Of a DNA stretch of 64,000 bases, positions 517-42,921 are shown piece after piece. The notes under the pieces were generated by a model. The model was not told the DNA's origin. It saw only the letters and a list, made by a program, of their open reading frames with translations, and ran no database searches. The translations under genes were made by a program, and so were the position numbers. Numbering within the stretch: position 1 is the first letter of the stretch; each line of letters begins with the position of its first letter. Source of the stretch: Bacteroidetes bacterium GWE2_42_24 (GTDB taxonomy: Bacteria > Bacteroidota > Bacteroidia > Bacteroidales > TTA-H9); assembly GCA_001768515.1 (NCBI GenBank), contig MEOA01000003.1, positions 1 to 64,000 on the forward strand. The letters run 5' to 3'.

Positions 517-542
517 ATGACTCCCGATAGCGATCAGCGATT
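517..542. repeat. Left imperfect terminal inverted repeat of copy 1
   Basis: This 26-base segment (core CTCCCGAT, then ATCA, ending CGATT) pairs with the reverse complement of 1598-1623 with about four mismatches. The mismatches lie between perfectly matched blocks. Confidence 0.55.
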
Positions 543-643
543 TTTTAACAGGTAATCGTTTTAGTAAGTTTCCTTGAATCTAAAGTCTGGTTAAAAACTA
601 CGGAGCCGGGGTGATGCTGGAGGTCATGCCTTCCTGGGTTAGT

Positions 644-675
644 TTGTAGAGACAAGGCATGCCTTGTCTCTACAA
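644..675. repeat. Perfect 32-bp palindrome
   Basis: The half-site TTGTAGAGACAAGGCA is followed immediately by its exact reverse complement. The equivalent site in copy 2 (41653-41684) differs by one central base. A perfect 16-bp stem without a loop could form a cruciform, act as a recombination site, or be a REP-like unit. Confidence 0.9.
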
Positions 676-794
676 TAATTATATCGTCCCCGACTCCTAA
701 ATCCCAATCAATATCAGAGAATATCGAAAAAGCCGGATGTAGCGTATTCCAGCTTTTGCATGGCTATTAAAATGTGTCATTTTTTAAGATGAAC

Positions 795-838
795 CGTAGA
801 TCAAGCGTAGATCAAGCGTAGATGAAGCGTATCTCAAG
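795..838. repeat. Four tandem 11-bp units (CGTAGATCAAG type)
   Basis: Units at 795-805, 806-816, 817-827 and 828-838 read CGTAGATCAAG, CGTAGATCAAG, CGTAGATGAAG and CGTATCTCAAG. The array begins within ACCGTA and ends in TACGGT, a 6-bp inverted pair that brackets it. The same four-unit layout occurs at 41805-41848. Confidence 0.9.
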
Positions 839-1098
839 CGTACGGTTAAGGTTGATCTTTGCTTGATTTTTGGCTGAAATGCGGCATACGTTCTTTTGAT
901 ACTCCATCATGTTATGCCATTATCATACCAAACCCGTAAAAAATTCAGGGATGGATAAAAAAAATTGAATCGATAAATTGTTACTTATCGGCCAATATAA
1001 GCCTCTGTTTGAATACCTGGGCGATTAAATTGAGTTGTGCTATTATCGCTTTGGAAAAGTTTTCGTCCGCGGAGCCTATTCCACAGGCGATTGGCCGA

Positions 1099-1131
1099 CC
1101 GGACTGAGGACACAACGTGAATAGAGTCCGG
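1099..1131. other. Hairpin conserved between repeat copies
   Basis: CCGGACT at 1099-1105 pairs with AGTCCGG at 1125-1131. Both arms are identical in copy 2 (42111-42143) although the loop bases have changed, which suggests the pairing may matter. Confidence 0.5.
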
Positions 1132-1597
1132 GGCATCCGGATCGCCTGAACATCGTGGCTTTTCTCTTTTTTTGGGGGCATTACCCGTTGTGAGGAAGTT
1201 TTAATGCTGGGAGTACCAATGACAATCAGGTCTCCTGAGGTGTCGTTAGAGCCAGTAATGAAATCCTTATCCTTTAAACCTTGAATTGATAGTTCTGCTT
1301 GGTTTGCTGATACTAATAATAATGCTGGCACCAGAAATACACATAAGCAACACTAAAACAAGCGAAATCAACAAAATAATGCGACAAATTGCTTTGCTAA
1401 TCAGATTTCATGAACAACAAGGGTTAATCCGGCAGGATTAGGGCAGTCATCTATTGTATTAAGCAAAAGGGATGAAATAAACAACAACGAGGATACGCTG
1501 CAAACATAAATAATTGTATTAGTGCGGTTTAAAGCATTCACCTATAAAACAAATACAATTACTACAGGTGGTGTTATAAACTGCGCAGGGCATAGAA

Positions 1598-1623
1598 AAT
1601 CGGTGATAGCGATCGGGAGGCAT
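1598..1623. repeat. Right imperfect terminal inverted repeat of copy 1
   Basis: Reverse complement partner of 517-542. Just outside each repeat lies a similar direct sequence (CATTGACCTTGACTA at 503-517 and CATGACTTTGACTA at 1626-1639), which may be a degraded target duplication. Confidence 0.5.
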
Positions 1624-37735: not shown

Positions 37736-38120
37736 ACGGCAGTTTGTTCTATCGCCTTTGCCCGTGAGGGCAGGGGAGGAAAGTCGGGACAACGCAGAGC
37801 ACCTTGCTTCCTAACGGGAAGGTACCGTGAAAGCGGTAACAGCCAGTGCCACAGAAAATAACCGTCGTGCCTCTGGTGCGATAAGGGTGAAAATGTGAGG
37901 TAAGAGCTCACGGCATCGGATGGTGACATCAGATGGGGGTAAACCTCAGGGGTTGAAAGGCCAAATAAACCGGGGATGGTTGCATTTAGGTGCAATCGGG
38001 AGGGTTGCTCGCCCGAGCCCGGAGGGTAGGCCGATAGAGGTGTCGGGTGACCGGCATCCCAGATAAATGGTAGAAGCCCTGCTTCGGCAGGGAACAGAAT
38101 CCCGCTTACAGAACTGTCGT
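37736..38120 (+). ncRNA. rnpB: RNase P RNA (M1 RNA)
   Basis: About 385 nt. The conserved P4 strand with GGAAAGTCGGGAC lies near the 5' end, the AGGGTGAAA region in the middle, and the 3' partner ACAGAATCCCGCTTACAG near the end. The P1 helix pairs ACGGCAGTT at 37736 with AACTGTCGT at the 3' end, followed by T7. It is the catalytic RNA that trims the 5' ends of tRNA precursors with RnpA. The gene stands alone between the DUF2027-Smr gene and the zinc transporter. Confidence 0.96.
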
Positions 38121-38255
38121 TTTTTTATTCCTGTTTTTAATCAGGTTTACTTTGGTTCAGAGTTACCCAAATAACTTCCCCACCACAGGATTACTGCCCG
38201 TAGGTATCCCCCGTAGAAAACTCGCCACAGGCAATCATAGATATTGAACCTGAAA
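38121..38255. other. Gap after rnpB
   Basis: The first seven bases complete the T run that may end rnpB transcription. The rest is gene-free and leads into the end of the zinc permease gene. Confidence 0.4.
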
Positions 38256-40850: not shown

Positions 40851-41345
40851 ATGATATCAAAAGGCCAACCGCTTCCGGATGTTTTCGCTTCATTGAACAT
40901 CGCATATACAGAATATGTTCACCCGCCGGCACCCGATATCCCGACCGCCAAATTGTACTGGAAAGACATCGAGGCAGCTCACTGTAAAAATCTTTTCTTT
41001 CGGAACCATAAAGGGAACCGCCATTACCTTGTCATCGTGGAGCATACAAACGATCTGGCAATTCATGATCTTGAGAAACGATTAAAACAAGGGAAACTGA
41101 CGTTTGCTTCAGAGGGACGAATGCACCGATACCTGGGCGTAAAGCCAGGGTCGGTTACCCCCTTTGGCCTCATCAATGACATCGAAAACCACGTCCATCT
41201 GTTTATTGACGAGAATCTTCGGCACGTCGACCGGATCAGTTTCCACCCGCTTGTCAATACCGCCTCATGGGTTATCAGGCATGATGATTTTGAAAGGTTT
41301 CTATCCTGGACAGGAAATACATGGGAGTATATAGCTCTGTACTAG
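40851..41345 (+). CDS. YbaK/ProX-family aminoacyl-tRNA deacylase
   Basis: 164 residues, the usual size of a stand-alone editing domain. It resembles PrdX/ProXp-ala proteins: KNLFFRNHKGNRHYLVIVEH, then LTFASEGRMHRYLGVKPGSVTPFGLIND and ISFHPLVNTAS. These hydrolyse mischarged Ala-tRNAPro in trans, protecting translation. The catalytic Lys of YbaK enzymes would be in the KN(L)FF segment. It is a single gene, divergent from znuA. Confidence 0.9.
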   Translation: MISKGQPLPDVFASLNIAYTEYVHPPAPDIPTAKLYWKDIEAAHCKNLFFRNHKGNRHYLVIVEHTNDLAIHDLEKRLKQGKLTFASEGRMHRYLGVKPGSVTPFGLINDIENHVHLFIDENLRHVDRISFHPLVNTASWVIRHDDFERFLSWTGNTWEYIALY

Positions 41346-41550
41346 CGTTATCTTTTCCTTGATTTTGTTGGTCTTGTTATAAGGAGGTGTTGCATTATTA
41401 GCTCCCCTGGCCATGAGTGCAGTTTTAATTCTTTTTTGTATTACTCCTTCCTATAGCAGAAAGTTTGGATGTAGTAATCGAAATAGGTCACCAGCCCTGG
41501 CATACCATACTATTTATATAGAACCAATGGTTCTGTATAGCTATCTGCTA
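41346..41550. other. Gene-free approach to repeat copy 2
   Basis: Nothing coding. It contains short palindromes such as AGAACC/GGTTCT near 41520-41535 just before the similarity to copy 1 starts. Confidence 0.4.
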
Positions 41551-41652
41551 TTATTTAGCAGGGAATTATTTTAGCAAGTTTACTTGAATCTAAAGTCGGG
41601 TTAAAAATTACCGCGCCGGGTGATGCAGGAGGTTATGCTTTTCTGGGTTAGT

Positions 41653-41684
41653 TTGTAGAGACAAGGCATACCTTGTCTCTACAA
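41653..41684. repeat. Near-perfect 32-bp palindrome in copy 2
   Basis: Same half-site as at 644-675; only the centre differs (CATACC in place of CATGCC). Confidence 0.9.
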
Positions 41685-41804
41685 TTATTATATCGTCCCC
41701 GACTCATAAATCCCAATCAATATCAGAGAATACCGGAAATACCGTAGGTATTGCATCCCAGGTATTGAAAGGCTGATAAAATGTGTCATTTTTTAAGATG
41801 GACC

Positions 41805-41848
41805 GTAGATCAAGCGTAGCTCAAACGTAGCTCAAACGTAGCTCAAGC
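41805..41848. repeat. Four tandem 11-bp units in copy 2
   Basis: CGTAGATCAAG, CGTAGCTCAAA, CGTAGCTCAAA and CGTAGCTCAAG, bracketed by ACCGTA and TACGGT. The number of units equals copy 1 although the third to fifth positions of the units have changed together, a sign of homogenisation within each array. Confidence 0.9.
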
Positions 41849-42110
41849 GTACGGTTAAGGTTGATCTCTGCTTGATTTTCGGCTGAAATGCGCTGTTAGT
41901 TCTTTTAATACTCCATGATGTTTCGCCAATATCATACCAAACCCGTATAAAATTCGGGGATGGATGAAAAATATTTTCAAATCGTTAAAATGTTACTTAT
42001 CTGCCAATATAAGCCCCTGTTTGAACATCTGGGCGGTCAAATTGAGTAGTGCAATTGTCGCTTTGGAAGTGTTTTCGCCCGCGGAGCCTCTTCCTCGGGA
42101 GATTGGCCGA

Positions 42111-42143
42111 CCGGACTGAGGATACACCGTGAAGAAAGTCCGG
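42111..42143. other. Conserved hairpin in copy 2
   Basis: CCGGACT and AGTCCGG arms identical to those at 1099-1131, with a loop of the same length and different sequence. Confidence 0.5.
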
Positions 42144-42565
42144 GTATCCAGGCCACCGGATCATCAGGGTTCTTCTTTTTTTGGTGTCATTACCTGTTGT
42201 GAGAAAGAACTGAAACAGTGAGGATCAATGGCAATCAGGTATCCCAGGGTGTCGTTAGGGGCATTATTGTTTTCTTAACCCTGAATTGATACTTTCATCT
42301 TTCTGGTTGCCTGGATTGTTGATACTACAATTAAGCCTGGCGCAAGAAAAACACATAAACAACACTAAAACAGGCAAAATCAACATAATAAGGCAACAAA
42401 TTGTTTTTCCAATCAGTTTTTATGAAAAATATGGGTTAATCAGAGAGGGATATGACCGTCATTATTGTATTTAGTAAAGCAGAATGTGATAATCAATATT
42501 GAGGACACTCTGTAAACATAAATAATTGTATAAAAGATGCTTAAGGATTCCACATGTAAAACAAA

Positions 42566-42921
42566 TTATATCAGGTCGTAATGAGGCTGTTCTGTTTGAG
42601 GGTAATTTGTTTCTGCCTTTCTGGTACAATGAAATGAATATGAAAGCAAATTTATAGGGTCTGGCTGTGCGGTGCTGTACTGTTGTGTACGGTTATGGAC
42701 ATGCTTGTAATTCAATTCCAATGTGAACCGTTTCTGCGATGTTGCTTTCACAATGTCGATACGCTTGTTCAATCGGGTTTACTTTTTTTTTGTTTTTTGT
42801 TATCGCGTTGATTTTGAGCTGTGAAATATGATTGTAATAATTTGAAGGAGGTTTCGTCTAAACTGTGGTATGGTTTCTGTTAATTTGTGTCTCCAAATAA
42901 CTTTTGAAAATTGCTTTGTTT
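42566..42921. other. Gene-free leader region of the barrel-receptor operon
   Basis: About 350 bases, AT-rich near 42780-42810 (long T runs). It should contain the promoter of the following operon; no perfect TAnnTTTG was chosen. Confidence 0.35.

Follow-up and report, generated by a model that had tools for sequence, protein, structure and literature searches.

A dispersed non-coding repeat family of a Bacteroidales genome joins MITE-like 1 kb insertions to an apparently retained core of 11-bp repeats

The window, that is the whole stretch of DNA analysed, comprises the initial 64 kb of contig C3 in the genome of Bacteroidetes bacterium GWE2_42_24 (4.32 Mb in 67 contigs) and contains two related repeats of about 1 kb. 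On balance, we lean towards the view that both copies belong to a non-autonomous mobile repeat family built around a conserved array core that is useful in place. The 1 kb copies resemble MITE-class insertions of the non-autonomous kind, and at the older loci the core seems to have been held by selection at matching sites of two species. A first-pass annotation had proposed either a mobile element or a structured RNA; the first proposal holds for the 1 kb copies and the second was not borne out. That annotation did not anticipate the conserved core or its retention at orthologous loci.

As that annotation had stated, the two repeats share the same orientation with few indels: positions 527-1554 and 41537-42566 align on the same strand with 79.8% identity over 1044 columns (blastn, E about 1e-267), and nearly identical blocks alternate with drifted ones in the alignment, as it had described. 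Both copies do sit in gene-free gaps, with no real gene before position 1710 of the window and with copy 2 in a gap (41345-42904) between two genes. Copy 1 had been placed at about 541-1560; the full-length type A element found there spans 536-1604 (+ strand; 1069 bp, non-coding) and has a 10-bp duplication on each side, the bounds being taken from the duplication and from the alignment of 10 long copies. The second type A copy (41537-42566, + strand; 80% identity to 527-1554) has lost its right end, with about 35 bp gone and the right terminal motif not found. At the start of the window, bases 1-74 are 92% identical to a place on contig C5 (L062 1501-1575), seemingly part of a repeated gene.

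The 1 kb form has several of the features by which MITEs are recognized, namely terminal inverted repeats, a target-site duplication, and several dispersed non-coding copies. The left terminal inverted repeat of copy 1, AGCGATTTTTTA (536-547, + strand), matches the reverse complement of 1593-1604 (− strand; the right end is the reverse complement of ACCGATTTTCTA) at 10 of 12 positions, and the AGCGATTTTTTA/ACCGATTTTCTA pair is short and imperfect. Outside it stands the duplication GATAGCGATC, identical at all ten positions between 526-535 and 1605-1614, followed by the two halves of a target palindrome, CTCCC (521-525) and GGGAG (1615-1619). The exact 10-bp duplication therefore occupies the centre of a repeated palindrome, CTCCC-GATAGCTATC-GGGAG, which in copy 1 reads CTCCC-GATAGCGATC-GGGAG. 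As GATAGCGATC is nearly its own reverse complement, copy 1 alone could also be read as having longer inverted repeats; we prefer the direct duplication because the flanks of L026 (GATTCATAGC/GATTCATATC) and of L031 (GATACCCC/GATACCCC) decide so. Across copies the duplication measures 8-10 bp (10/10 matches in the window copy, 9/10 in L026, and 8/8 in L031). In the ten copies with both ends, the two flanks of a copy are more alike than flanks paired across copies (permutation, p=0.0009 at a fixed 10 bp and p=0.0002 with 8-10 bp allowed). L037, which has both ends, shows no target duplication.

Excision of copy 1 together with one duplication leaves CTCCCGATAGCGATCGGGAG, which is close to a palindrome. 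The target palindrome is itself a dispersed repeat, with 32 sites here and 19 in G001, another member of the genus (at most 3 mismatches), and the reversed control of the pattern gave 0 sites. The 1 kb form prefers the middle of this repeated CTCCCGATAGCTATCGGGAG palindrome. Runs of imperfect hexamers, TTTGAC or TTTGGC, lie beside target palindromes (491-530, 1615-1645, and many flanks such as those of L030, L032, and L050) and are perhaps pieces of a larger composite repeat. An 85-bp repeat with 80% identity occurs in the flanks of two long copies (260-343 and L026 1789-1873). Inside the element of copy 1, the perfect palindrome GTAGAGACAAGGCATGCCTTGTCTCTAC with its flanking bases (644-675) takes the place of about 75 bp present in other copies; this self-complementary short repeat is also present on its own in several genomes of the order, for example G018 and G036.

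The first-pass annotation knew of a pair only, and had named two copies without relatives as the outcome that would count against it. A 1151-bp query gave 58 matches within its own genome, and many more copies of the family were found. The long (type A) copies number about 10, made up of the two in the window and L026-L033, and the loci that bear the core (~110-170 bp) number at least 50, a lower bound since the counts in this genome rest on searches and fetched loci. Type B consists of the left ~280 bp and the core only, type C of a different, longer left part and the core (L056, L057, L062, and L063), and further members are truncated; apart from end fragments, family members contain the core. 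In SZUA-528 (a MAG, genus-mate G002), 19 core loci are present among those fetched, and the core has no match in the third genus member, G001. As a DNA pattern, two array units had no hit in the 394 other genomes of the class, and a sequence model (an RNA model without any base pairs, used as a sequence profile only) had a single hit in 149 genomes of the order, weak and partial (G518, E 3e-4). An exact-pattern scan of a public genome collection gave hits at four sites of SZUA-528, on one SZUA-381 contig, and in two unrelated minisatellites. The SZUA-381 contig, from a MAG labelled Crocinitomicaceae, carries a type C core (L074 5747-6113); by its name SZUA-381 is a sister submission to SZUA-528, and this core is possibly due to mis-binning or lineage transfer. 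The 11-bp minisatellites GATAAAGCGTA, in Paenibacillus endophyticus/Psychrosphaera sp. (L077 2735-2763 and L080 173-234), are near the array unit and come without the remaining core. A phage or plasmid origin was rejected after no match was obtained in the phage collection, the plasmid collection, or the viral contigs.

The gene beside copy 1 has orthologues in SZUA-528 and G001, where the 3.3 kb and 2.6 kb beyond it are without the element. The genes that flank copy 2 lie at contig ends in SZUA-528, with 1,183 and 203 bp beyond them, and about 15 kb apart in G001, and the adjoining stretches are again without the element. No base-exact empty site was found in G001 or SZUA-528, in which the flanks are too diverged or at contig ends. 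Long copies are also missing from the ten orthologous core loci described below. Since it is absent both from these stretches of the genus-mates and from the orthologous loci, the 1 kb form probably multiplied recently and in this species alone. None of the ten DDE_Tnp_1 matches is a transposase with the element's ends, and neither frames nor Pfam indicate that the element encodes a transposase as an insertion sequence does. For the 1 kb copies the mobile alternative is thus upheld by the target duplications, the short terminal inverted repeats, the ~10 dispersed copies and internally deleted ones, the lack of coding capacity, and the absence of the element from the readable syntenic stretches of two genus-mates.

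The core has a fixed order: an A/T block, an array of 11-bp units, CGTACGG, an arm able to pair with the array, and a TTCTTTT box. In copy 1 the core, with its A/T block, array, inverted arm, and TTCTTTT box, occupies 778-895 (+ strand) and is common to at least 50 loci here and the 19 of SZUA-528. Its array (793-836, + strand) holds four units, and the partly complementary arm (842-880, + strand) is GGTTAAGGTTGATCTTTGCTTGATTTTTGG. The core of copy 2 (41787-41905, + strand) contains the units ACCGTAGATCA, AGCGTAGCTCA, AACGTAGCTCA, and AACGTAGCTCA. Across the family the array has 3-9 (once 11) direct repeats of the unit ASCGTAGATNA, and its statistics were taken over 260 units and per copy. Among 160 internal units of 50 copies, positions 1 (A), 3 (C), and 4 (G) are deviant in 0-1%, positions 5-9 in 4-10%, positions 2 and 11 in 20-24%, and position 10 in 44%. 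Six matches out of 11, wherever in the unit they fell, sufficed for acceptance, a rule that favours no position. Which positions are invariant and which are free is much alike in the source genome and SZUA-528. Counted once per copy, the unevenness between positions has p=4e-9 here and p=0.002 in SZUA-528; the unit set is partly biased, because the pattern that first picked up some SZUA-528 loci has several positions fixed. The loci of the source genome were mostly found through whole-element similarity.

For ten core loci the neighbouring genes on both sides are the same in the source genome and SZUA-528, and the array has the same orientation in all ten (p=0.002). In nine orthologous pairs the core is 59-85% identical, against 44-56% for the remaining intergenic region. 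The global alignment of L126/L063 misplaced the core, giving 42% there and 69% in a local alignment; the excess of core over rest has a Wilcoxon p of 0.001 with the local value and 0.003 with the global one. In each of the ten pairs the core falls within the best local match. In L048/L119 (L048 1591-2455) identity is about 80-87% throughout the intergenic region, type B element included, although the flanking genes are only 50-61% identical at third codon positions, and either the whole type B element is constrained or the segment was recently exchanged. Retention of the arrays at matching chromosomal positions in the sister species suggests, as far as comparison of the two genomes can tell, that they serve a useful purpose in the cell.

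Core loci occur in every kind of gene arrangement, and no shared function was seen among their neighbouring genes. These two observations argue against a plain regulon. A promoter for the neighbouring gene was rejected as well, as downstream genes lie in both orientations and the promoter scan stayed within the range of the shuffles. The options left for the core are chromosome organization, a hairpin RNA, or simple retention.

For what the core does, we infer a role in place. A transposase acting in trans, now absent or unrecognized, would have moved the 1 kb element, and the array would serve as a phased protein-binding site, 11 bp being about one helical turn, or as a transcribed hairpin. 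The 1 kb element may have spread recently by carrying the core or by being born from it. Several findings count against this mobile family with a useful core: no autonomous relative is present among the DDE_Tnp_1 loci, the inverted repeats are short and imperfect, L037 has no duplication, L048/L119 is conserved beyond the core, G001 has no core, and the core stands in all gene arrangements with no common function among its neighbours. There is also a tentative possibility, by analogy with iterons, that the 11-bp arrays are genome-wide functional sites bound by a dedicated protein at fixed intergenic positions, and that a transposon-like element captured an array, or was born from one, and multiplied it in one species.

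We consider it rather doubtful that the family is plain MITE debris in which the core only looks conserved, its arrays being easily recognized and homogenized by slippage or gene conversion, with no role for the host. The signs of mobility (target duplications, the repeated target palindrome, and the absence in genus-mates) agree with such debris, as does the lack of a core in G001. Array length points the same way, since variation from 3 to 11 units means that slippage occurs. However, slippage spreads mutated units too, and alone it cannot hold positions 1, 3, and 4 invariant with position 10 free in two species. The common orientation at 10/10 orthologous loci also speaks against debris.

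A conserved structured or regulatory RNA, with a transcribed core that forms a long hairpin and copies that are paralogues of an RNA gene, is unlikely. Many single cores do fold into a long hairpin (z of -4.7 for L063, -3.9 for L125, and -5.8 for L075; in the window -2.05 for copy 1 and -0.66 for copy 2), and arms pair with arrays better than shuffled arms do (mean z -2.4). In the SZUA-528 set alone, moreover, own arms beat swapped arms (p=0.02). Against these results, RNAalifold predicted no consensus pair, and the specified helix is no better paired than its shuffles (81.1% paired versus 80.8%), so that no covarying pairs beyond the controls were found. Overall an own arm has no advantage over the arm of another copy (p=0.58; within groups p=0.08), nor has it one in the source genome, and Rfam has no match of the element to a curated family. 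With no general own-arm advantage, no consensus pair, and no helix excess, the complementarity of array and arm is best taken as an inherited property that gives no evidence of coevolution, and it is here that the structured-RNA half of the earlier proposal goes unsupported. It may be that a single binding motif simply stands in direct copies in the array and in inverted ones in the arm. A weak resemblance to an RNase P motif noticed by eye (AGAGTCCGGG near 1124-1134) was dropped, as Rfam is empty there. The window has an ordinary bacterial RNase P RNA (class A) at 37736-38124 (Rfam, 252.8 bits).

The first-pass annotation was right that the repeats are non-coding. Substitutions between copies have no codon periodicity, the three positions counting 682/741/665 (p=0.10), and in most copies the longest frames are about as long as in shuffled sequence. 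The remnant of a protein-coding insertion sequence or gene on the minus strand is very improbable and mostly refuted: minus-strand frames of 116-117 aa exist in the window copy (116 aa, 981-1331) and in L026 and peptide fragments recur among copies, but the frame is shifted or stopped in most other copies, the region 960-1330 has no third-position excess (p=0.23), and the 116-aa frame of copy 1 has no Pfam match at E<=1.

Bacterial MITEs are mostly regarded as debris. The present family has both faces within one set of repeats, probably recent insertions with target duplications and old loci with a retained core. If the core binds a protein, a mobile element would here have sown binding sites across a whole chromosome in nature. 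The repeat family and two short palindromic repeats are also nested together, which bears on the origin of such mosaics.

Direct repeats at a spacing of about 11 bp are found in OmpR/PhoB-type boxes and in ParR/parC. Known sites of that kind occur in small numbers per genome and belong to a gene or plasmid, whereas the present arrays stand at dozens of chromosomal intergenic places with no common neighbour. By analogy, the spacing would allow protein molecules to sit next to each other along one face of the DNA, in the manner of OmpR/PhoB-type regulators or ParR. Insertion sequences that target REP palindromes are known (PMC1525189; ISPpu9, PMC8450116); like the present family they insert into a dispersed intergenic palindrome, but they encode a transposase and the present copies do not. 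REP/BIME and GTAG-tagged palindromes are likewise dispersed intergenic repeats, BIMEs are protein-binding sites, and a palindrome starting with GTAG lies inside the present element; they are hairpins of 20-40 bp, whereas the present core is an array of 11-bp direct repeats (PMC3733652, PMC2817692). The nearest known system in build, although an unrelated family, is BrickBuilt, a MITE of Porphyromonas gingivalis (Klein et al. 2015, PMC4596501). Both are non-coding and intergenic in Bacteroidota, up to about 1 kb long, and like the present family BrickBuilt (about 20 copies) has complete and truncated copies, a tandem minisatellite between leader and tail, short terminal inverted repeats, a hairpin predicted from the repeat, and some sites in common with a sister species (PMC4596501). 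The 23-bp unit and the IS5-like GAGACC ends of BrickBuilt are not those of the present family (PMC4596501 Table 2). BrickBuilt ends match the IS5 family and its target duplications are short and irregular (PMC4596501); for the present family no parent IS was found among the DDE_Tnp_1 loci, and it is set apart by its 11-bp unit, its AGCGATTTTTTA ends, its 8-10 bp duplications, its palindrome target, and the position-specific constraint on its array.
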